36,950 nt of DNA, taken from positions 1 through 36,950 of IMG/VR virus record IMGVR_UViG_3300035070_001339. The stretch is one strand, 5' to 3'. Below the pieces are notes generated by a model that saw only the letters and a list, made by a program, of their open reading frames with translations, ran no database searches and was not told the origin of the DNA. This DNA is from a virus. Made by a program: the position numbers and the translations under genes. The stretch's first letter is position 1. Each line of letters starts with the position of its first letter. Below, piece by piece: positions 2,507 to 36,950 of the stretch.

Positions 2507-4843
2507 ATGGGTATGGTAAAAGTAGATTATGGAAATCCCAGTGGCTTGTCAGGTCTATTCAAGTTAGACCCTTCGAAGTTTAACTTTAGCGCTTATGCTC
2601 CTACGGCTGAACCTGAACCTGAGGCTGTCACAGACCCTATAGCTGTTGTTTCAAATAACACACCGGATGCACAAGTAGATGTACTTGAGGATGAAGGTAC
2701 GGTAGCTGTTACTGTTCCTACTCATGTTCAACAAACTATGAATGAGCTAAAGGGTAAAGACCTGACTGATGATTTGAATGTCAATCCTTTTCTTAATGCA
2801 TCTCCTACAACATTTAATAATATTAGAGATTTGACATCCAATATTCCTGTTTCTTCGGGTGGTAATACTAACGGTAGTTTTTTAGATGTTGGAGCAGGTC
2901 AGACAGGTATTAGTTCTAATGTCGATTATGGTGTAGGCGCTGAAAAGGCTTATGATTTACTGGATGGTGTATTGGAGTCTAATAGTGATATTGAAGATAT
3001 CAATAACTATCTTAAAAGTGAACAGTTTGGTAGTTATATGTCAGAGTATGATGACCGTCTTTCTACCCTAGGCGATTACAAACGAGCGGAAGGTGCTACA
3101 ACTAATTTATTAAATCAAGTTGGTCTTTCTAAAGCGTTAGGTGTTCAAGGTAAATATGGTGGATATAAGAACTATACATACAATGGAGAAACTAATCAGT
3201 ATGAACTAACAGGCGACACCGAGAAGAGTGCGTTTGAAGCAGCAGCTCCAGATATTATTGTAGGGGTAGCAACTGCTGCAGCTACAGCAGGGTTAGGGAG
3301 TGCTTTAGGGGCAACTGTGGGAGCTACAGGAGCTGCCGGCACAGCTGCCACAAATGCTGTAGCAAGTGCAGTAGTTCAACAACTTACAACAGGTGAAATA
3401 GACCCTACAAAGGTAGCACTTGCTGCTCTAGGTGGTGCGCTACAAGGAGCTGAGGCTGCAGATGCAGCAGCTAACGCAGACTTGGCAGGGGCTTATGCTG
3501 ACTTTGGTGTGGACAGTGTTGAATACGCTAACGCGTTATCCACAGCTAACGAAGCTACATCTACTCTAGAAGTTATAAGTAATATTAGCACAGGTGTTGA
3601 TATTGTAAGCGCTGTAGAAGATAAGAATATTATTAAGGCTTTTGATTTAACAGCAGGGATGATGGATTCTCCTACTCTCAATGCAACTGTCTCTAAGCAA
3701 CTATCTAATGTAGTTCCTGAGAATTATTTAGATGCTGCTACAAACGCAGTAATTAGAGCAGGTTCAACTGCTATTCAAGGTGGCGATGTAGGTGAAGTAC
3801 TGCAAGACTCTACTAATGAATTTCTAATTGAGCAGTACGCTACGGAGAAAGCTGTTCAAGAAAGATTTGGATTCGAAGGAGACTGGGCTAAAACAGCTTC
3901 ACGTACTATATCATCTATAGCTACGGACACGCTAAAAGGCGACAGCTCTCAAGACATAGCGCTATCCGGTTTAGAAACTTTCCTAGATAATGCTATTAGG
4001 CTTATTCCAGAGGGTGAAGACTCTGCAGACTACTTAGCTGATGCTGAGAAATGGTGGCATGAAAATGTGGAAGACCCTTTACAAAACTGGTGGCAGGAAG
4101 TAGAAGGTACGCGTGAAGCTATCGAGCAACCATTTGAAGATGCTTATAACTTTGCGGTCGGTGCAGGGCAAGCTGCTCTAGATTCTGTAGACGCAGGAAT
4201 AAGAGCTGTCCCAACAACTAAAAAGGACTGGGAAGACGCTGTAGAAACAGTTAATAATACTGTTGTAGACCCTGTTGTTGAAACTGTGCGTGAAACAGGT
4301 AGACAAGCTGAAGATGTCTATGACACAGTTGAAGACTACGTTAAAGAAGAAGTAGCTCCTACTGTAAGAGAAACTGGCAGAGGTGTCAGGGAGGCTGTTG
4401 ACCCCATATCTAATGCTGTAAGAGAAACAGGTCGAACTCTTGAAGAAGGTTATGATGTAGTTGAAGATTATGTCAAGGAAGAGGTAGCTCCTGCCGTTAG
4501 AGATACTGGTAGAGATATACGTGAATTCTTTGACACTGATGGTGCGGATAATCCTGATATTAACATTCCTAGTGTAGACATCCCTGACGTTGATACTCCT
4601 AGTGTTAGTGGCAGTCTTAACGGGTATAAGAGATATCAGGACTACTACTATGATGACACGGACTTAGTTACAAACCCTCTACTATCTACTAGCTCTCAAC
4701 GTATTAAAGACCTAACTGGTTCTTTAACACAGGAGAAAGAGATTGAGAAGGCGAGAATAGCTAAAATTTTAGCTGATGAACAAGAACGTAAGCGTAGGAC
4801 TAAACCTGTATATGGTATAGACCCTAGACTTACAGTAGGATAA
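2507..4843 (+). CDS. Large virion protein with Ala/Gly-rich and VRETGR-repeat regions
   Basis: The 778-aa protein is Pro/Glu-rich at the N terminus. It has an Ala/Gly hydrophobic stretch near residues 245-325, which might insert in a membrane. From about 590 to 680 an imperfect repeat appears twice (VRETGR, then an EDYVKEEVAP block, then VR-TGR) and looks helical and amphipathic. The C terminus is basic. Size and composition resemble internal virion or ejection proteins. The Shine-Dalgarno is weak; ATG at 2513 is an alternative start. It lies just before the tail tubular genes. No enzymatic motif was found. Confidence 0.7.
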   Translation: MGMVKVDYGNPSGLSGLFKLDPSKFNFSAYAPTAEPEPEAVTDPIAVVSNNTPDAQVDVLEDEGTVAVTVPTHVQQTMNELKGKDLTDDLNVNPFLNASPTTFNNIRDLTSNIPVSSGGNTNGSFLDVGAGQTGISSNVDYGVGAEKAYDLLDGVLESNSDIEDINNYLKSEQFGSYMSEYDDRLSTLGDYKRAEGATTNLLNQVGLSKALGVQGKYGGYKNYTYNGETNQYELTGDTEKSAFEAAAPDIIVGVATAAATAGLGSALGATVGATGAAGTAATNAVASAVVQQLTTGEIDPTKVALAALGGALQGAEAADAAANADLAGAYADFGVDSVEYANALSTANEATSTLEVISNISTGVDIVSAVEDKNIIKAFDLTAGMMDSPTLNATVSKQLSNVVPENYLDAATNAVIRAGSTAIQGGDVGEVLQDSTNEFLIEQYATEKAVQERFGFEGDWAKTASRTISSIATDTLKGDSSQDIALSGLETFLDNAIRLIPEGEDSADYLADAEKWWHENVEDPLQNWWQEVEGTREAIEQPFEDAYNFAVGAGQAALDSVDAGIRAVPTTKKDWEDAVETVNNTVVDPVVETVRETGRQAEDVYDTVEDYVKEEVAPTVRETGRGVREAVDPISNAVRETGRTLEEGYDVVEDYVKEEVAPAVRDTGRDIREFFDTDGADNPDINIPSVDIPDVDTPSVSGSLNGYKRYQDYYYDDTDLVTNPLLSTSSQRIKDLTGSLTQEKEIEKARIAKILADEQERKRRTKPVYGIDPRLTVG

Positions 4844-5505: not shown

Positions 5506-7005
5506 ATGGCTAAACCATTACAGACAGTTACCATTCAGGCTCCGGGCTTCTACGGTTTAAATACTGAAGATAGCCCCACCTCTTTAACAGAGCAATATGC
5601 CTTGGATGCGACTAACTGTGTAATTGACCAATTCGGTCGGATAGGTGCACGTAAAGGGTGGAGCTATTTAAATCAAGATTCGACAGACCCTATAGTGAGT
5701 GTTGGAGAATATATCAATAACTCTGGAGAGAGTGAGATTATCTCAACCACTGGAGCTAGTATCTATGCCGGCAAAACTTCCTTAACGGATATTACTCCTG
5801 CAAGTTATGGGATTAATAGTGGAAACTTTGCACACGCTAGTTTCAATGACTATCACTTCCTATTTGCTGCAGACCAAGAACCTTTATACTATGATGGAAC
5901 TACTTGTGACCTAATTAGTAACAACTCATTCTACAGTGGGACAGTGCCACAAGGTGATATAGTTGTAGGTGGTTTTGGTAGATTGTGGGTGACAGGGACA
6001 ACCGCCAATAATGATAAGATTTTCTTTTCAGACCTTTTGAATGGTTTTGCATGGGACACAGGCTCATCCGGCTCTATCGATATCTCAAAGGTTTGGGTAG
6101 CAGGTCAAGACAGAATCACTGCACTAGCTATACATAATAGCTTTTTAATTATATTCGGTGAACGTCAGATTATAATATATGAAGGTGCTAGTGACCCTGC
6201 AACAATGTCTCTAGTTGACACTATCTCAGGCATAGGTTGTATAGCTCGTGATAGCATACAGAGTACTGGTGCTGATTTACTATTCCTATCTGATTCAGGG
6301 ATTGCATCTCTCAACCGTATTGTTCAGACTAAATCTCTACCCATCTTAGATATAACACGTAATGTTAGACTTACATTTATGACAGAGATTCGCTCCGAGA
6401 CTGGTGTTATAAAAACTGTGTTCAGTCAAGAAGAAGCCTTCTACCTTGTCCGTCTTCCATCTCTTGGTGTCACTTGGTGTTTTGATGTCAGAGCGCCGTT
6501 AGAGAATGGTGCTTTCAGGGTGACTAAATGGGAAGGTCATACAGGTACATGTTTCGTAAGAGATAAATCAGGTGACTTAATTATAGGTGTTAGTGATGGA
6601 CTTGCGTTGTATAATGGATACAGCGATAATGGTAGTAGCTATCATATGTCTTATTTCACAAACTACTTAGACTTCGGTGCACCTAGTAATTTAAAACTAC
6701 TTAAGAACTTAAAGATAACAGTTATAGGTGGTTCAGATACAGATGTTACACTTAACTGGGGCTATGACTATAGCTACTCTTACAAGAAGAAACGCTTCAC
6801 ATTAAGCGCACAAGTAATAGCAGAATATAATGTAGCTGAATATAACGAGGGTGAATTTAACGCAGGTGTATTAGTTAATAGACCTACAGTTAATGCTGCT
6901 GGTGGTGGTCAAGTTGTACAGCTTGGTATCGAAGCAGAAGTTAATGGCGCACCAGTTTCTATACAGCGTATGACAGCACAAGCAATAATAGGAAGGACTA
7001 TTTAA
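5506..7005 (+). CDS. Tail tubular protein B-like (tail nozzle)
   Basis: The 499-aa, beta-rich protein has the N-terminal pattern APGFYGLNTEDSP, later ALDATNCVIDQFGRIGARKGW, which is common in podovirus nozzle or stabilisation proteins. It lies directly after the gp11-like gene with a strong Shine-Dalgarno (GGGGG). It is shorter than T7 gp12 (about 790 aa), so a compact marine form is likely. The stop overlaps the next start (TAATG). Confidence 0.65.
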   Translation: MAKPLQTVTIQAPGFYGLNTEDSPTSLTEQYALDATNCVIDQFGRIGARKGWSYLNQDSTDPIVSVGEYINNSGESEIISTTGASIYAGKTSLTDITPASYGINSGNFAHASFNDYHFLFAADQEPLYYDGTTCDLISNNSFYSGTVPQGDIVVGGFGRLWVTGTTANNDKIFFSDLLNGFAWDTGSSGSIDISKVWVAGQDRITALAIHNSFLIIFGERQIIIYEGASDPATMSLVDTISGIGCIARDSIQSTGADLLFLSDSGIASLNRIVQTKSLPILDITRNVRLTFMTEIRSETGVIKTVFSQEEAFYLVRLPSLGVTWCFDVRAPLENGAFRVTKWEGHTGTCFVRDKSGDLIIGVSDGLALYNGYSDNGSSYHMSYFTNYLDFGAPSNLKLLKNLKITVIGGSDTDVTLNWGYDYSYSYKKKRFTLSAQVIAEYNVAEYNEGEFNAGVLVNRPTVNAAGGGQVVQLGIEAEVNGAPVSIQRMTAQAIIGRTI

Positions 7006-13031: not shown

Positions 13032-13406
13032 TTAGTAGGGGAGTTTAGATACGATAGGACATTTGAGAACTTCACACATCGTTCTGAATGGAAACCACTT
13101 AATCTTTCTTTCTTTAGCTTTCCAGTGGGAGAGTGCCCTACCTGTGAACCCTGCTTCGTCAGCTAATTCGATAAGTGTCATTCCGGTGGTATGAGTGTGT
13201 AGTAAATTTGATAGGTGTTCGATGGGGGCTAGAGGTGCTTGATAACCTAGTGCGGAGAGAATAGCTGTTGCTCTAGTTGCATCCATATCTTGATTCTTAT
13301 AGAGCATAGCATCCACCGTATGATGTGGGAGTTTGTATAATTTCTCAAACCCCCTCACTCCGTGCTTGTCACAGTTCTCTCTAACTAGTGACCTTAACGT
13401 AGTCAT
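13032..13406 (-). CDS. Double-HTH DNA-binding protein, paralogue of the 19249-19626 product
   Basis: The 124-aa product has two helix-turn-helix-like segments, LPHHTVDAMLYKNQDMDATR in the N-terminal half and a Cro/CI-like LIELADEAGFTGRALSHWKA near residues 78-97. The C terminus, IKWF-F--MCE-L-CPIV-KLPY, is nearly the same as in the 19249-19626 protein. The two genes are therefore duplicates in the same operon. A transcription regulator is likely. Its start overlaps the stop of the 103-aa gene. Target sites are unknown; the CTAG repeats near 23217 and 26157 are candidates. Confidence 0.75.
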   Translation of the reverse strand: MTTLRSLVRENCDKHGVRGFEKLYKLPHHTVDAMLYKNQDMDATRATAILSALGYQAPLAPIEHLSNLLHTHTTGMTLIELADEAGFTGRALSHWKAKERKIKWFPFRTMCEVLKCPIVSKLPY

Positions 13407-16317: not shown

Positions 16318-16347
16318 CTTAAAAGAAAGGACTACCGAAGTAGTCCT
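16318..16347 (-). terminator. Terminator with UUCG tetraloop between SSB-like and exonuclease genes
   Basis: On the minus strand AGGACTAC-TTCG-GTAGTCCT is a perfect 8-bp stem closed as C(UUCG)G, followed by TTCTTTTAA. It lies in the gap after the SSB-like gene. It could end most transcripts, leaving more SSB than exonuclease, unless the boxA system reads through it. Confidence 0.8.
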
Positions 16348-19248: not shown

Positions 19249-19626
19249 CTAATAAGGTAGTTTGTTAACAACGGGGCATCTTAAAGCCTCGCACATAATC
19301 TTAAATTCAAACCATCGGATACTAGATTTACCTTTCTTCCATCTCTGGATTGTTTGTCTATCGTAACCGCATGACTCGGATAGTACTCTTAGTGAGCCAA
19401 AGTTTTTCTTTTGTAGTAGCTCTCTCAGGTGTAAAGCTGCACACTCGGGAGTCTTATATTTTAATGCTCTTAAGACTTTCAGAGTTGAGTCAGCCGAGCC
19501 GTTATCGTAGTAAAGCAGACCGTGTAAGTCATTCTTAGAAAGGTTATACTGCTTCATGAAGTTTCTTCTCTTCATTTCATGGCACATTCTCCTAACCGTC
19601 TGCCTTATAGTCTCACCATTCTTCAT
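19249..19626 (-). CDS. Double-HTH DNA-binding protein, paralogue of the 13032-13406 product
   Basis: The 125-aa basic product has two helix-turn-helix-like regions, YNLSKNDLHGLLYYDNGSAD and LRVLSESCGYDRQTIQRWKK, and the same C terminus as the 13032 gene (IRWFEFKIMCEALRCPVVNK then LPY). It is the more basic of the two. It overlaps the end of the small membrane peptide gene. It is a likely transcription regulator of the phage. Confidence 0.75.
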   Translation of the reverse strand: MKNGETIRQTVRRMCHEMKRRNFMKQYNLSKNDLHGLLYYDNGSADSTLKVLRALKYKTPECAALHLRELLQKKNFGSLRVLSESCGYDRQTIQRWKKGKSSIRWFEFKIMCEALRCPVVNKLPY

Positions 19627-20427: not shown

Positions 20428-22077
20428 TTAATGTTGTTGTGGCTCTAACAATCTTCCAGTGTTCTTATTAAAGAATAAAGGAATGATAGCACTCTCACCA
20501 AAGTTACGGTCTTCTAGTATAACTAGCTTACGCGTATTTCGTTCCTCATCGGACAGCTCAGGGTCTTTATTCCCCTCAATACCTATCATCATGTGACAGA
20601 AACGTGCCATTGCCCGACTGCCTGCGAATTGACTTGACAACACTTTACCACCTCTATCATGTGGTGTACCGCTCTGTGGGTTGTTCAAGTGGCAGAAACA
20701 ATAAGCTGTAAACTCTAAGTCTTTAGCTAGTGTGGCAAGCTCTGACGCAATCTTAATTAACATGTCATTAGCTTCACCACTAGACAGACCAACAGTGAAG
20801 CAAGTTAGGGGGTCTAGGATGACATCACGACAACCTAACACTGTGACGTTGTAGCGTATCTCCTGCTTAACCTCTTCCCATTTAACATCTTGGTATGTGT
20901 CATAGATTAGTGCACTACTACCTATAATCTCTTTACCTTTGTCGAATTCATCTTGATTAACTGGCATGTTGGGGTCGTAGAATATACGGTCAACTGCTGT
21001 ACCTGCTAGACGCTTCAATGTACCGCCCATGGATTCTTCAGGCTTAACTAGAAATACCGGTGTATCAACGGTCTTAATAAGGTGTGTCGCTATCTCGTTA
21101 ACAACAACACTCTTTCCAATCTTAGGTGCGCCACCGAAGTAATACACCTCACCTCTACGGATACCTCTACTCTTAGCAGTTAGCGTATCCCACACCCAAG
21201 GTATGCCATGTTCCGGTGTGTATTCAGCTAAATGCCATATATCACTAGAGCGTACACTCTTACCACTGGTAGGTGGGTGTGCATCCCATACACAAGCCTT
21301 AAACAATTCTTTCTGTCTACCTGCCTTATACATCTCATTAGAGTCTTTAAGCGGTAGTTTGGCTACTAGTATCTCAGGGAACATCTTACCTAATTCTGTA
21401 GCAAACATTGCTCCGGCTTCATCTTGGTCAGGTACAACAACAATATCCCTAAAATTACGCTTGATATCTGCAATGAAGGGATATAGCTTCTTGGCACTAC
21501 TCGCCCCACCTTGCACACTGATAACACTTGCACTCTTACCATCATGCTCAAAGATAGTTTGCCATAGCGCCATCGCATCACACTCACCCTCTGTGATATA
21601 GAGTTTAGCTGACTGTGGTGCTGACCTTAGTGCTTGCTCCCAACCGAAAGGGTCAGAGTTAACAACACTACCAACACAAAAGAATCGTTTATTTTCCACA
21701 AGTCTAACTTTATATCCCTTAATCTTACCGTTCATGGTGTAGGGGTAGTGATGTGCTGTTATGGTTTGCCCATCAGACTCACTGAGAGCCACTGTAACGC
21801 CAAAATGCTCACTAGCCTTTAGTGGCAATCCTCTATCGGTTAAAGCCTTCTTAGGATGGTTGTAAAGAGCTTTTAGCTCTGCTTGTATTTCTTCTGGAGT
21901 TTTAGTTTGAGTTTTAGGACGATAATCCTCAGGTTTATCTCCATACGGATTAGCCACGTATGTACGACATGCAAAGCAATATCCAGTGTATTTATTATTT
22001 TCTTCATCATAAAAAACATTTAACCCCTTAGTTGAGCCACAATCGTGTGGCAATCTTTCTACAATTTGATTACTCAT
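20428..22077 (-). CDS. Primase-helicase (T7 gp4-like)
   Basis: The 549-aa product has an N-terminal zinc-type site (H11, C13, C34, C37), a TOPRIM primase domain with EGECDAMAL (E163) and VVPDQDEAG (D217, D219), and a RecA-like helicase domain with Walker A GAPKIGKS (316-323) and a B-type strand VILDPLTCF. It unwinds DNA and makes primers at the fork. T7 gp4 has about the same length. Its start overlaps the methyltransferase stop (TAATG). Confidence 0.93.
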   Translation of the reverse strand: MSNQIVERLPHDCGSTKGLNVFYDEENNKYTGYCFACRTYVANPYGDKPEDYRPKTQTKTPEEIQAELKALYNHPKKALTDRGLPLKASEHFGVTVALSESDGQTITAHHYPYTMNGKIKGYKVRLVENKRFFCVGSVVNSDPFGWEQALRSAPQSAKLYITEGECDAMALWQTIFEHDGKSASVISVQGGASSAKKLYPFIADIKRNFRDIVVVPDQDEAGAMFATELGKMFPEILVAKLPLKDSNEMYKAGRQKELFKACVWDAHPPTSGKSVRSSDIWHLAEYTPEHGIPWVWDTLTAKSRGIRRGEVYYFGGAPKIGKSVVVNEIATHLIKTVDTPVFLVKPEESMGGTLKRLAGTAVDRIFYDPNMPVNQDEFDKGKEIIGSSALIYDTYQDVKWEEVKQEIRYNVTVLGCRDVILDPLTCFTVGLSSGEANDMLIKIASELATLAKDLEFTAYCFCHLNNPQSGTPHDRGGKVLSSQFAGSRAMARFCHMMIGIEGNKDPELSDEERNTRKLVILEDRNFGESAIIPLFFNKNTGRLLEPQQH

Positions 22078-22937
22078 TATAATACTCCCTTTAAAATATG
22101 TGATATAACATCAACCGTCCAACCGTTACCTAATACTTTCTGGCACTGGTTGTAACTAAGTATGTCAGTGTAGCCATCTGGAACTGTTTGGCATCTCTCA
22201 AGCTCTCTACGGGTCAAGTATCTACAGAAATCTTCATACTGTATCAGACCACTGTTGGGTTGACGGTCTTGTTTTATTGTTAGACAGTATGCTTTATCAC
22301 TACTTGTTATATTGTAGCATCCACCAGTTTTACCCCCAGTACCATTACCATCTGCCCACATTTTACGTCTACTTGGTGTATCGTTGACTTTTGCCTCTAT
22401 AAGCCTAGTTGAATTAGTATCTTTTATATCTTGAAATGTTATACCTTTATCTATAGGCAAATCTTGCTCCCAGTTAAACCAATACCATCTTGGTCTTTTC
22501 TGTGCACTAACAAGCTCGCTGTTAATAAATACACCATCAACACCAGTAAAGTCATTTATAACTTCTAAGTTCTCTTTCTTCATTCTTACATTTTCTAGTA
22601 AAAACTTAACTTTTGGATTTATTTCTTTAATGTGGTTAAGTATTTCGATAAACGTAAAAAATAATACAGAGCGTTGGTCATCAAACGCTAACTCTTTACC
22701 TATTCGTGAAAAACCTTGGCATGGGCTACCAGCTAAAACTAAGTCAAAGTTCCAATCGATATCCCACTCTTTCCACTTGGTAACATCACCTAACCTTATA
22801 ATATCAGGATAGTTAGATTCACTAACCTTGATAGCGTGTTTATCTATCTCGCTTGAGTAGTAAGTGCAAGCAACACCTAGCTTGTCTAGAGCTATACGGC
22901 CGCAACTCATACCATCAAATAGACTTAGAACTCTCAT
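22077..22937 (-). CDS. DNA cytosine C5-methyltransferase
   Basis: The 286-aa product has FDGMSCGR (SAM site), GSPCQGFSR with catalytic Cys73, LLENV (E115) and SAQKRPR, the ordered motifs I, IV, VI and VIII of C5 methyltransferases, and a C-terminal VLGNGWTVDVI motif X. It would methylate cytosine in phage DNA, probably to resist host restriction. No matching restriction enzyme is in the window. The start overlaps the 61-aa gene (ATGA). Confidence 0.94.
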   Translation of the reverse strand: MRVLSLFDGMSCGRIALDKLGVACTYYSSEIDKHAIKVSESNYPDIIRLGDVTKWKEWDIDWNFDLVLAGSPCQGFSRIGKELAFDDQRSVLFFTFIEILNHIKEINPKVKFLLENVRMKKENLEVINDFTGVDGVFINSELVSAQKRPRWYWFNWEQDLPIDKGITFQDIKDTNSTRLIEAKVNDTPSRRKMWADGNGTGGKTGGCYNITSSDKAYCLTIKQDRQPNSGLIQYEDFCRYLTRRELERCQTVPDGYTDILSYNQCQKVLGNGWTVDVISHILKGVL

Positions 22938-23119
22938 ACTAATTCCCCAATTTGATCTTCAATAAAATCTAACGCATCATCATAAACCGCAAACTTAGCA
23001 CAAACTCTGCTATCTCTAAGCTTACACTCTTCAACAATGTATGGCGTGTCATACTCTTTGGCACTATATGACAGCTCAAAAGCCATCTTAGGTACGCCTC
23101 TAAATAATAAAACTTCCAT
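22934..23119 (-). CDS. Hypothetical protein (61 aa)
   Basis: GAGGAA precedes the ATG and the stop overlaps the methyltransferase ATG. The product (FELSYSAKEYDTPYIVEECK onward) looks like an alpha/beta mini-protein with an acidic end DALDFIEDQIGELV. No family was recognised. It lies just left of the orphan rightward promoter, and a weak leftward promoter may serve it. Confidence 0.6.
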   Translation of the reverse strand: MEVLLFRGVPKMAFELSYSAKEYDTPYIVEECKLRDSRVCAKFAVYDDALDFIEDQIGELV

Positions 23120-23180: not shown

Positions 23181-23209
23181 TTGACTTTTATAAAAATTTA
23201 TGCTAAAAT
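23181..23209 (+). promoter_or_regulatory. Orphan rightward sigma70-type promoter
   Basis: TTGACT (23181-23186), a 17-bp AT-rich spacer ending in TGC, then TAAAAT (23204-23209). It has an extended -10 (TGN). It is directed rightwards while every gene around it reads leftwards, so its transcript is non-coding or antisense. The layout equals the late promoter at 26118. Confidence 0.8.
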
Positions 23210-23215
23210 CAAATC

Positions 23216-23332
23216 TCTAGAGAGTACTTCCTAGAAAGCACTAACAGCAAGTTAGTCTTCTCCTCAAAAGTATTCTTATCCTGATAAGGATGAGAGAGTA
23301 CTACTAGGGGTACTCTCTACACCTCCTCTCTA
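23216..23332 (+). ncRNA. Candidate structured leader RNA or small RNA from the orphan promoter
   Basis: No ORF of note follows the promoter. The RNA would hold three stem-loops: CTAAC/GTTAG (23241-23255), CTTATCCT/AGGATGAG (23275-23294) and GAGAGTAC/GTACTCTC (23294-23317). It then has CACCTCCT (23320-23327), equal to the anti-Shine-Dalgarno end of 16S rRNA. No U-run terminator follows, so the 3' end is not defined. This may also be a replication origin or a transcription-interference device. Confidence 0.4.
23217..23244 (+). repeat. Two direct CTAG-RRAGYACT units (putative operator)
   Basis: CTAGAGAGTACTTC (23217) is followed by CTAGAAAGCACTAA (23231), spaced 14 bp, directly after the predicted start of transcription. 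A related unit lies at 23304, and similar units lie at the late promoter. AGTACTTCCTAGAAAGCACT is also nearly palindromic around CTAG. Confidence 0.6.
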
Positions 23333-23608
23333 CTAATCCTTAGTACATACAAAGCTTTCTAATAGAATAATCTCATAAGGTGTCAGAGAACCCCACAGAC
23401 TCTCAGTCATAACCTTAGCGTGAATTTTCTGCATTTGTGTATATCGTTCCAGCTGAGGATTTAGCCAATCCTCTCGTTCTTTATTTACATCCTTAGCAAA
23501 AGAACAGACTACATGAGCAGTAGTATTAAAATGCTGTCTAACCATTTCTTGTGCATCCTTAATAGACAATGCATTTGCATTACAGAATTCAATAAATTTA
23601 TTCGCCAT
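23333..23608 (-). CDS. Hypothetical protein (91 aa)
   Basis: The start MANKFIEFCNANALSIKDAQ at 23608 has GGAGAG upstream and overlaps the previous stop (TAATG). A longer frame to 23629 is less likely. The product looks all-helical and slightly basic. No domain was recognised. It is separated from the downstream genes by the non-coding block with the orphan promoter. Confidence 0.65.
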   Translation of the reverse strand: MANKFIEFCNANALSIKDAQEMVRQHFNTTAHVVCSFAKDVNKEREDWLNPQLERYTQMQKIHAKVMTESLWGSLTPYEIILLESFVCTKD

Positions 23609-23838
23609 TATATACTCTCCAAAATACAATCTCTAAGTTCAACATCGTAGTATGCTTTAAAACGTTCCATATCACTGCGTGAGAGGTCATAGTCGAAGTT
23701 TTCATCGTCACATATGTAAACACTCTCAACACCCCAAGAGAAGCCGTCAGACTCTCCCACAGACGCATCACCCTCGTACCACTTAACCTCAAGTACAACA
23801 TAGTACTTATCTCTAAAATCTTCTAGCGTTAAAATCAT
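23608..23838 (-). CDS. Acidic early protein (76 aa)
   Basis: A strong Shine-Dalgarno AAGGAGG precedes the ATG. The product is strongly acidic (about 20 Asp/Glu against 7 Lys/Arg by my count), with LEVKWYEGDASVGESDGF and CDDENFDYDLSRSD. Charge and small size are like phage DNA-mimic or host-takeover proteins such as T7 Ocr, but no similarity can be claimed. It lies in the early cluster. Confidence 0.65.
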   Translation of the reverse strand: MILTLEDFRDKYYVVLEVKWYEGDASVGESDGFSWGVESVYICDDENFDYDLSRSDMERFKAYYDVELRDCILESI

Positions 23839-25200: not shown

Positions 25201-25395
25201 CGTACGTATTCTCCTTGATTAAAATTATTGTTTAACACCCTAGTAGTAAGGCGCTAAAGAATAATAGCTGATCCGCAGTGATTAATTTAACTAGAATGTA
25301 AACGATGGTAGTCTTACGCATCTGATCTGTAGCGGTCAGCTATTGGTGGGGTAACTAAGTACGCCCCTCTATCAACACTCTGCTTAATACAACCT

Positions 25396-25482: not shown

Positions 25483-25569
25483 CAAGGGAAGTTAAACCAT
25501 GCTTTTGCGAACACCCCAAATCGTCAACTTATCAGTTACTATCCAGTGCTTGTATTACGCATCATGTCG

Positions 25570-25584
25570 AATTGTTAAAGAGCT
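25570..25584 (-). promoter_or_regulatory. rRNA-type boxA antitermination site in the early leader
   Basis: The minus strand reads AGCTCTTTAACAATT. The E. coli rrn boxA region is TGCTCTTTAACAATTT, so 14 bases (GCTCTTTAACAATT) agree. A stem-loop lies two bases upstream, as boxB does in rrn leaders. NusB-NusE (with SuhB in rrn) would be the expected readers. It is 370 bases before the first early start codon. Confidence 0.7.
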
Positions 25585-25585
25585 A

Positions 25586-25621
25586 ATCAACATACTGAAA
25601 GGCGTCTGCCGTTTCGTTGAT
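25586..25621 (-). other. Stem-loop upstream of boxA
   Basis: Minus strand ATCAAC ... GTTGAT closes the outer stem. The inner part GAAACGGC-AGAC-GCCTTTC pairs with one bulged C. Two bases separate it from boxA. It matches the boxB-boxA order of rRNA leaders. Confidence 0.65.
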
Positions 25622-25628
25622 GGTTATC

Positions 25629-25657
25629 ACAATACGAGATATCGTTATAATCGTAAA
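25629..25657 (-). promoter_or_regulatory. Candidate leftward early promoter
   Basis: Minus strand TTTACG, a 17-bp spacer and TATTGT, with a T-run upstream. Predicted start near 25622 puts the hairpin and boxA at the very 5' end of the RNA, which supports it. The hexamers match only four of six each. Confidence 0.45.
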
Positions 25658-25821
25658 CAAAAAACAGGTACGACCAGCTACAACCCGCTTGGTATCTACA
25701 TCCTAAATGTTTGGTGGTTATTATTTGTACAGGGTATTTATAGGTATATGTGTACAGTGTATAGGTGTAATGGCTTGGGTGTATTTGCTTGGATAGGTTG
25801 GTATAGGCTCCCTACTCCACA

Positions 25822-25843
25822 TTCTCACTTCATCTTGTGAGAA
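25822..25843. repeat. Inverted repeat / hairpin
   Basis: TTCTCAC (25822-25828) and GTGAGAA (25837-25843) pair perfectly around an 8-base loop on either strand. No U-run. Function unknown; it may be a protein binding site in the control region. Confidence 0.5.
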
Positions 25844-26117: not shown

Positions 26118-26146
26118 TTGACATTTGTCTATAAATATGTTAAAAT
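26118..26146 (+). promoter_or_regulatory. Late rightward sigma70-type promoter
   Basis: TTGACA (26118-26123), a 17-bp spacer ending TGT, then TAAAAT (26141-26146). The -35 is perfect and the -10 extended. It drives terminase and all structural genes, starting about 26153. Confidence 0.88.
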
Positions 26147-26156
26147 CAAGCAACTT

Positions 26157-26183
26157 CTAGGGAGCACTCCTAGAGAATACTTC
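26157..26183 (+). repeat. Two CTAG-type units at the late transcription start
   Basis: CTAGGGAGCACTC (26157) and CTAGAGAATACTTC (26170) follow the late promoter at the same place as the pair after the orphan promoter. This suggests a shared operator. Confidence 0.6.
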
Positions 26184-26204
26184 TTATCTTTAAAGAGGTG
26201 TTTC

Positions 26205-26224
26205 AGGAGGAGGTTTCCACTCCT
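26205..26224 (+). other. Strong Shine-Dalgarno without start, inside a hairpin
   Basis: AGGAGGAGGT (26205-26214) has no start codon at a suitable distance. AGGAG pairs with CTCCT at 26220-26224. It is a ribosome-binding-like element of the late leader, possibly a decoy or target for an antisense RNA. Confidence 0.45.
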
Positions 26225-26289
26225 AAGAGTCCTTCCTAATTAAGTATATGTTAGTTGCCCCACAATATGCCTGTTAATCAGAGAACATT

Positions 26290-26688
26290 ATGTCAGAAGA
26301 AACAACACCTGTTAAGAAAAGAAGAGGTAGACCACCAAAGATAGCAGTAGCTGCTAAGACTGCTAACAAAGGTAATAGACCTGTAGGACGCCCTAAGGGT
26401 GATGCAGGTATTATTAACGAGTATAAGGCTAGAATGTTAGCGTCTCCTAAGAGTAAGAAGGTTTTAGAGACGATATTTGATGCAGCCTTAGACAATGAGC
26501 ATAAGAATCAAGCAGCAGCTTGGAAGCTTGTTATGGATAGGATTATTCCTGTTGCAGCCTTTGAGAAGGATGTAGTAGGTAACAGTGGTAAGAATGCTAT
26601 TCAGATTAATATTACAGGTGTAGGTGGAGAGACGACAGTAGTCTCAGGCAACGAGGATATAGTTGATGCAGAATACAAAGAAGAGTAA
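26290..26688 (+). CDS. Terminase small subunit candidate with AT-hooks
   Basis: The 132-aa product starts with two AT-hook motifs (KRRGRPPK and NRPVGRPKG), which bind the minor groove of AT-rich DNA. A helical middle (EYKARMLASPKSKKVLETIF) follows, then an acidic C-terminal tail. It is the first late gene and lies before lysozyme and the large terminase, as expected of TerS. It has no direct similarity that I can prove, so the call rests on place and composition. Confidence 0.65.
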   Translation: MSEETTPVKKRRGRPPKIAVAAKTANKGNRPVGRPKGDAGIINEYKARMLASPKSKKVLETIFDAALDNEHKNQAAAWKLVMDRIIPVAAFEKDVVGNSGKNAIQINITGVGGETTVVSGNEDIVDAEYKEE

Positions 26689-30477: not shown

Positions 30478-30506
30478 TTGACTTTTTTATACTTTTATGT
30501 TATACT
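30478..30506 (+). promoter_or_regulatory. Rightward promoter for scaffold and capsid genes
   Basis: TTGACT (30478-30483), a 17-bp spacer ending TGT, then TATACT (30501-30506). Same design as the other two promoters, in the gap between portal and the 80-aa gene. Confidence 0.85.
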
Positions 30507-36054: not shown

Positions 36055-36950
36055 ATGGCTTCTAAAGCAAGAGACATAGCTGACTTAGGCTCTAACGATG
36101 TCTTGGAGACAACGGCTACAGGCGTTGACGTCACAGGCACAGTGACTGCGGATGGCTTGACGGTTGATGGCAACACTCAGTTAAAAGGTGATGTGTCATT
36201 CTATGAAGACACGGGCACGACTGCGAAGATGGTGTGGGATGCTAGTGCTGAGAGGTTAGGGATTGGCACGGCTAGTCCTAGTGAAGAACTACACATTGAG
36301 ACAACTGGTGGTGCTACAGCAGGGATACAGTTAAGTACCACTGGAGGTGCTGTTGATAGAGACTGGAAGTTTCTTGCGACTGCCGCCGCCGGAACTTTTT
36401 ATATTCAAGATGCAACCGCAAGTGTTAACAGGTTGGCTATTGACTCAGCAGGCAACGTAGGGATTGGTACGGCTAGTCCTTATACGACTTTGGATGTAGC
36501 AGGTTCATATGACACAGTAGCTACGTTTAGAAGTTTTACAAATAATGGAAACGCATCTAATGTCACAATACGAGGTGTGGATTCTGATAGTAGTCACTTT
36601 TGTAACTTTCAGTATCAAGGTTATACGCACCAGTTTTTATCCGATGGTGGCTCAGAACGAGCCAGAATAGACAGCTCTGGTAATCTGTTGGTTGGTAAGA
36701 CAAGTGATAATACTTCACTTGATGGGGTAAAACTGGCTAACAATGGGTCTACTTTTGTCAGAAGTAATGCCACTGTTATGTTTGTAAATTTGCAAGCGGG
36801 TTTAAGTGGTACGCTTTTACAATTCAGAAGAATAAACTCTGATATTGGTAGTATTTCTGTATCAGGCTCAACGGTAAGTTTTAATGAAACTTCAGACGAG
36901 CGAGTAAAAGAAAACATACAAGACACAGCTCATGCTGTTGACATTAATGA
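36055..36950 (+). CDS. Tail fibre 2, S74 type (3' end beyond window)
   Basis: ATG at 36055 follows AGGAG. The frame (MASKARDIADLGSNDVLETT then ATGVDVTGTVTADGLTVDGN) runs to the window edge with no stop. It has GIGTASPSEELHI, GNVGIGTASP, SERARIDSSGNLLVGKTS repeats and enters the S74 domain (SDERVKENIQDTAHAVDIN). Its last 77 bases are identical to 469-545, so it probably continues as in the fibre part at the window start. The target-binding part differs from that copy. Confidence 0.85.
   Translation, partial: MASKARDIADLGSNDVLETTATGVDVTGTVTADGLTVDGNTQLKGDVSFYEDTGTTAKMVWDASAERLGIGTASPSEELHIETTGGATAGIQLSTTGGAVDRDWKFLATAAAGTFYIQDATASVNRLAIDSAGNVGIGTASPYTTLDVAGSYDTVATFRSFTNNGNASNVTIRGVDSDSSHFCNFQYQGYTHQFLSDGGSERARIDSSGNLLVGKTSDNTSLDGVKLANNGSTFVRSNATVMFVNLQAGLSGTLLQFRRINSDIGSISVSGSTVSFNETSDERVKENIQDTAHAVDIN
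36874..36950 (+). repeat. 77-bp exact repeat, copy 2 (also at 469-545)
   Basis: The last 77 bases of the window are identical to 469-545. The base before the repeat differs in the two copies. It encodes the S74 start. Confidence 0.95.

Follow-up and report, generated by a model that had tools for sequence, protein, structure and literature searches.

A putative second copy of a late-type promoter and leader, facing the early operon of a marine phage

Introduction

A strong promoter that points against all of its neighboring genes, with no open reading frame behind it, raises the question of what its transcript could be for. The preliminary description of such a site in a phage early operon had offered three roles: a regulatory RNA acting on ribosome-binding sites, an antisense RNA that shuts down early genes, or the priming transcript of a replication origin. 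The site is examined here in the window (the whole stretch of DNA analyzed, a virus record of 36,950 bases) and in related phages. The phage belongs to a marine group for which deposited phage genomes offer no close counterpart (terminase identity <60%).

The rightward promoter and its genomic setting

The orphan promoter lies within a 213-bp gap separating a 92-aa gene from a 61-aa gene. The relevant features are as follows.

12.6–25.2 kb, minus strand: early and replication block (HTH proteins, metallophosphoesterase, exonuclease, polymerase, primase/helicase, methyltransferase, small genes)
From upstream of the terminase, plus strand: late block, running rightward and diverging from the leftward early block
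23333–23611, minus strand: 92-aa early gene, its 3' end antisense to the predicted rightward RNA
22934–23119, minus strand: 61-aa early gene, directly downstream of the site for leftward transcription
20428–22077, minus strand: primase/helicase (phrog_239, E 1e-140), the replication gene behind the site
19249–19626, minus strand: early Cro/C1-type HTH protein, with a paralogue at 13032–13406
23181–23209, plus strand: orphan promoter pointing rightward (TTGACT-17-TAAAAT, extended -10 TG), with transcription predicted to start at ~23216
26118–26146, plus strand: late promoter of the same type, kept in the phages L094 and L002
30478–30506, plus strand: another promoter of this type, the third, located past the portal gene and lacking both the leader module and a notable fold
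23455–23486, plus strand: possible but weak intrinsic terminator, which would end the rightward RNA at ~270 nt; 7-pair stem, T-rich tail, -8.3 kcal/mol, located within the 92-aa gene

For leftward transcription, the site directly precedes the 61-aa, methyltransferase and primase genes. The 92-aa gene product had no convincing family match. The two HTH proteins (19249–19626 and 13032–13406, both on the minus strand) are paralogues with 37% identity. Near both ends of the window, within tail-fibre-like sequence, there is a 108-bp repeat (438–545 and 36843–36950) that is 94% identical.

The orientation of the promoter against all neighboring genes was confirmed by the motif on the plus strand. 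The absence of a downstream gene also held, since no plausible rightward open reading frame was identified; the nearest (45 aa at 23513) is without supporting evidence. Matches to the strict form of the motif, TTGAC[AT]-N14-TGNTANANT, number three in the window (23181, 26118 and 30478, all rightward), as compared with 0.02 in dinucleotide shuffles. The strict extended -10 motif is needed for this comparison: a simple consensus scan gave 31 sites versus 37 expected, and the non-randomness is therefore invisible to it. In 741 kb of related contigs, the strict motif was found 73 times, mostly either following the portal gene or directly before the pre-terminase gene; in the latter place it serves as the late promoter. 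The orphan promoter may therefore be considered an extra copy in the two-promoter late set of the phage. By these statistics the predicted promoter is real, and judged by its motif it is a host-type σ70 promoter that faces the early operon and adjoins the replication genes.

A leader module shared with the late promoter

The similarity between the orphan and late promoters extends beyond the promoter motif into the predicted transcripts.

23217–23244, plus strand: two tandem module units (CTAGAGAGTACTTC, CTAGAAAGCACTAA), diverged late-leader copies with 3 mismatches each to the 17-nt module
26157–26186, plus strand: late-leader module, with an exact unit at 26157–26173 and a second unit at 26170–26186
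26153–26263, plus strand: late leader RNA, its 5' and 3' ends kept in three phages (GCAACU...AGUUGC)

Both transcripts start with tandem units of the module CTAGRRAGYACTYCTAG, which is quasi-palindromic (CTAG-AGYACT units). The preliminary description had overlooked that the predicted promoter and its first transcribed bases copy those of the late promoter. When the window, L094 and L002 were scanned, the exact module was found only at leader positions, namely at 26157 in the window, in the late leader of L094 and in the inner slot of L002. Five leaders from the window, L094 and L002 (late and inner) were then compared by local alignment against shuffles, and 10 of 10 pairwise comparisons beat the shuffles (p ≤ 0.018). 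The late-late pairs, as well as the L002 inner leader against the window or L094 late leader, gave p 0.001, while the late and inner leaders of L002 gave p 0.004 and the window inner leader against the four others gave p 0.008–0.018. The post-portal promoter at 30478 presented neither leader similarity (p 0.8) nor a fold (z -0.5).

Folding of the predicted RNA

The first 117 bases of the rightward RNA had been described as three consecutive stem-loops.

23216–23319, plus strand: folded RNA domain, with a closing stem (23218–23234 with 23304–23319) and inner hairpins at 23236–23259 and 23269–23302

Strong folding was borne out. The RNA from 23216 has a folding energy of -43.0 kcal/mol (z -4.0 to -4.9) and is the strongest-folding 117-nt segment between 12.7 and 26.3 kb when both strands are considered. 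The arrangement as consecutive hairpins was not, since in the best fold the RNA forms a closed three-way junction, with the 5' end, containing the module, paired to 23304–23319. Three separate hairpins were rejected: with the pair span limited to 40 nt, the energy reaches only -32.2 at a cost of 11 kcal/mol. The minus strand at the site folds equally well (-43.2, z -2.9) and folding alone therefore leaves the functional strand undecided.

Among the related marine phage contigs, the mean z was -2.35 for 19 late leaders (which include related ones and thus represent fewer than 19 independent cases), -1.46 for 7 early-region leaders and -0.52 for 20 control post-portal leaders. In related phages, the leader at the late position is structured though its sequence differs. 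Over the late leader region at 26153–26290, the ends are almost invariant in three phages and the middle diverges. Since a forced common P0+P1 fold costs 6–9 kcal/mol in two of the three, a single consensus structure for the late leaders was rejected and none is claimed.

Possible pairing in trans

Immediately after the folded domain there is a short motif on which the ribosome-binding-site role had been based.

23320–23327, plus strand: CACCTCCT, an anti-SD-like 8-mer at chance level, absent from the L002 counterpart

The 8-mer is present as described; its significance is not supported, since 0.89 occurrences of CACCTCCT are expected by chance in the window. It is highly improbable that the RNA acts in trans through this 8-mer to block ribosome-binding sites, above all in the late leader. 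The late leader does contain AGGAGGAGGT, an 8-base match to the 8-mer, and the duplex between the RNA tail and the late leader beats 99% of single-base shuffles of the tail. However, the late leader ranks 43rd of 2108 genome segments as a partner of the tail, with 42 segments pairing better, and the L002 inner RNA is without the 8-mer, its tail pairing with its own late leader only at chance (p 0.14). The AGGAGG stretch of the late leader (AGGAGGAGG) lies ~80 bases from the start codon within the leader fold and for this reason is not a ribosome-binding site. Conserved, above-background pairing of the orphan RNA with a target ribosome-binding site was not observed.

A possible replication origin

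In a T7-like scheme, the rightward transcript would prime or open an origin adjoining the primase gene; this idea draws on the nearby replication genes and on the AT-rich promoter region (GC 0.36, ~22.5–23.5 kb). It is nevertheless improbable. The cumulative GC skew, which gene orientation partly drives, turns at 25.2–25.5 kb in the divergent intergenic region and not at 23.2 kb; there are no notable tandem iterons near the site; and comparison of 20 window proteins with PHROGs revealed no phage RNA polymerase. In λ, the proposal that oop serves as a primer was later considered unlikely (PMC3985674). This role was consequently set aside together with the pairing in trans.

Antitermination and a possible cis-acting leader RNA

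The leader of the leftward early transcript contains elements associated with antitermination.

25571–25583, hairpin to ~25630, minus strand: exact boxA of rrn type, GCTCTTTAACAAT, preceded by an ATCAAC...GTTGAT hairpin, both in the early leftward leader
25231–25258, minus strand: terminator-like hairpin of the leftward early unit, directly before the first early gene
16328–16347, minus strand: terminator-like hairpin of the leftward early unit, between a 247-aa gene and the exonuclease

The same ATCAAC...GTTGAT hairpin is found in L094, with GTTCTTTAACAAT. The two terminator-like hairpins are natural antitermination targets. An open reading frame at 25499–25840 on the plus strand is unlikely to be a gene and was set aside; where it resembles L094, the similar stretch spans the boxA region of the opposite strand. 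The boxA match suggests that the early operon is under boxA-dependent antitermination, and the window phage therefore probably uses antitermination.

With this in mind, the main RNA-level rival holds that the shared structured leader is a cis antitermination or anti-pausing RNA resembling HK022 put or nut, such that polymerase starting from 23216 or 26153 is modified and reads through terminators. The occurrence of similar structured leaders behind two promoters in a single phage is reminiscent of putL and putR in HK022 (PMC9378689). In addition to the exact boxA of the early leftward leader, late leaders are structured across the clade, and a distance separates the window late leader from the first start codon (26290), so that it is not simply a ribosome-binding site. 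Against this, no Rfam covariance model matched at any threshold used, and both the sequence and the detailed fold vary between leaders. Readthrough from 23216 would serve no gene, except by reaching the late region 3 kb on. No boxA was found within 2 mismatches in 23216–23340; only the early leftward leader has one. A put-like role is unlikely.

A broader form of the same idea may be considered, in which a large marine phage group carries fast-evolving structured leader RNAs twice per genome (late and early-region) that act in cis on polymerase. Their sequences would differ between lineages and match within a genome, and they would work in a put-like way, either alone or together with a phage protein. 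In the window phage the early-region copy would be reversed, so that a late-type transcript silences the early operon. This reading is quite unlikely.

Relatives of the site and a DNA-level reading

The phage L002 retains an exact module in the same gap, beside a homologue of the 61-aa gene (48%). The promoter of this slot is weak; its best match is TTTACT-17-TATTAC, which was not listed by the promoter scan. The gene for a possible distant relative of the two window HTH proteins terminates beside this inner element of L002. A weak promoter beside an exact module counts against a conserved antisense RNA and favors a role of the element as DNA or as a relic. From these sequences, conservation of the predicted orphan promoter is thin, being limited to one relative in which the promoter is weak. 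Searches for further relatives of the slot with the primase, the polymerase, the 61-aa protein and leader patterns found only L002, and genome contigs provided none. The primase of the Zobellviridae relatives (RIO-1 and others) is ~50% identical to that of the window, and no slot counterpart was obvious in the gene layout of two annotated records. Viral contigs with a polymerase 37–45% identical contained no promoter scoring at least 13.

In two other phages, an early-region element resembles the late leader of the same phage. In L022, 15 identical nucleotides, equally far from the -10, are common to the early-region and late promoters (p 0.0015); L006 shows a longer stretch of resemblance (p 0.0005). 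The similarity was not significant in L028, L039 and L041. In both L022 and L006, the early-region copy is oriented along the operon. An antisense role is therefore not general, and the head-on arrangement is specific to the window phage and perhaps L002. Orphan rightward promoters in L039 (815) and L041 (957) were not counted as the same element, as their RNAs are unstructured and have no significant similarity to their own late leaders. Both are strong and lie 3.6–4.1 kb before the pre-terminase gene, and the one in L041 is located in a gap between leftward early genes.

The main non-RNA rival is that the element acts as DNA, either as tandem near-palindromic operators for a phage regulator or as a recombination relic, and that the rightward RNA has no role. 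The module is quasi-palindromic and tandem, and the phage encodes an HTH protein family. The exact module beside a poor promoter in L002 and the orientation of the early-region copy, which varies between lineages, are also consistent with this reading. The early region of L054 has eight tandem copies (5717–5810) of a 12-nt unit, GAGCACTATAGA, similar to the window leader module. On the other hand, the window copy retains a near-consensus promoter although its module has drifted, and its RNA has the strongest fold of the region. This DNA or relic reading is not very likely. Elsewhere in L002, a tandem array at 3962–4067, in the divergent early-late intergenic region, has 8-bp (also 24- and 40-bp) periods around GTCTAGAA/AGACGTCT; as a sequence pattern it resembles ribbon-helix-helix operator arrays or origin iterons.

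A proposed late-type promoter head-on to the early operon

The feature is real and non-random. It is more specific than had been recognized in the preliminary description, and not as exotic as two of the three roles offered there. The reading preferred here, at a probability of roughly 40%, is that the late-type σ70 promoter and structured-leader start occur here as a second copy, placed head-on to the early operon and tuning the early genes in the manner of λ pO/oop. Among the roles first offered, an antisense RNA that shuts down early genes comes closest, because the position resembles that of λ pO/oop and the promoter is related to the late promoter. In λ, pO adjoins a replication gene and is directed against pR; it reduces transcription from pR and influences replication, and the oop RNA is antisense to cII (PMC3985674).

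According to this model, host RNA polymerase would start at ~23216. The resulting transcript would be short, noncoding and structured, running antisense through the intergenic gap and into the 3' end of the 92-aa gene. It would act mainly in cis, by polymerase collision, antisense pairing or both, with the outcome that leftward transcription into the replication genes is lowered or timed. By analogy with λ, the orphan promoter probably brakes or times the early genes. As the module is common to both promoters, one phage factor, possibly an early HTH protein, may control them jointly; the HTH protein at 19249–19626 is a candidate reader of the module. The shared element probably ties the timing of the orphan promoter to that of the late promoter.

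The head-on reading agrees with the presence of HTH regulators in the early operon and with late leaders that are structured clade-wide when control promoters are not. The degenerate inner module of the window (3 mismatches), the lack of a strong terminator and the equal folding of the minus strand count against it. If it is right, a simple early-to-late switch would be built from host-type promoters, with one element at the late promoter and at a head-on early promoter. The more surprising part is that structured late leaders extend across the clade and that their element was copied into the early region. This group of marine phages would then contain a family of structured late leaders that had escaped description.

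Comparison with known systems

The closest likeness is to λ pO/oop. In both cases, a promoter beside the replication genes opposes the early operon and has no open reading frame behind it, and a short noncoding RNA (predicted here) runs antisense to the upstream gene at its 3' end. The two systems differ in that the orphan RNA opens with a copy of the late-leader element, folds strongly and has no clear terminator. The host and the neighboring genes are unrelated, and conservation has been shown in a single relative.

The primary origin of T7, with its phi1.1A/B promoters, is similar with respect to an AT-rich promoter adjoining replication genes. The window phage differs by its host-type σ70 promoter and by the absence of an origin signature at 23.2 kb.

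Like λ nut and the rrn boxB-boxA elements, the early leftward leader has an exact boxA preceded by a hairpin; this boxA, however, is on the strand opposite to the orphan RNA. The put RNAs of HK022, which the window leaders resemble in their placement behind two promoters of the same phage, are ~70 nt with two stem-loops, belong to early transcripts and bring about factor-independent readthrough via the β' zinc-binding domain. In contrast, the window leaders are ~100 nt with closed multibranch folds and are located on a late transcript and a predicted antisense transcript.
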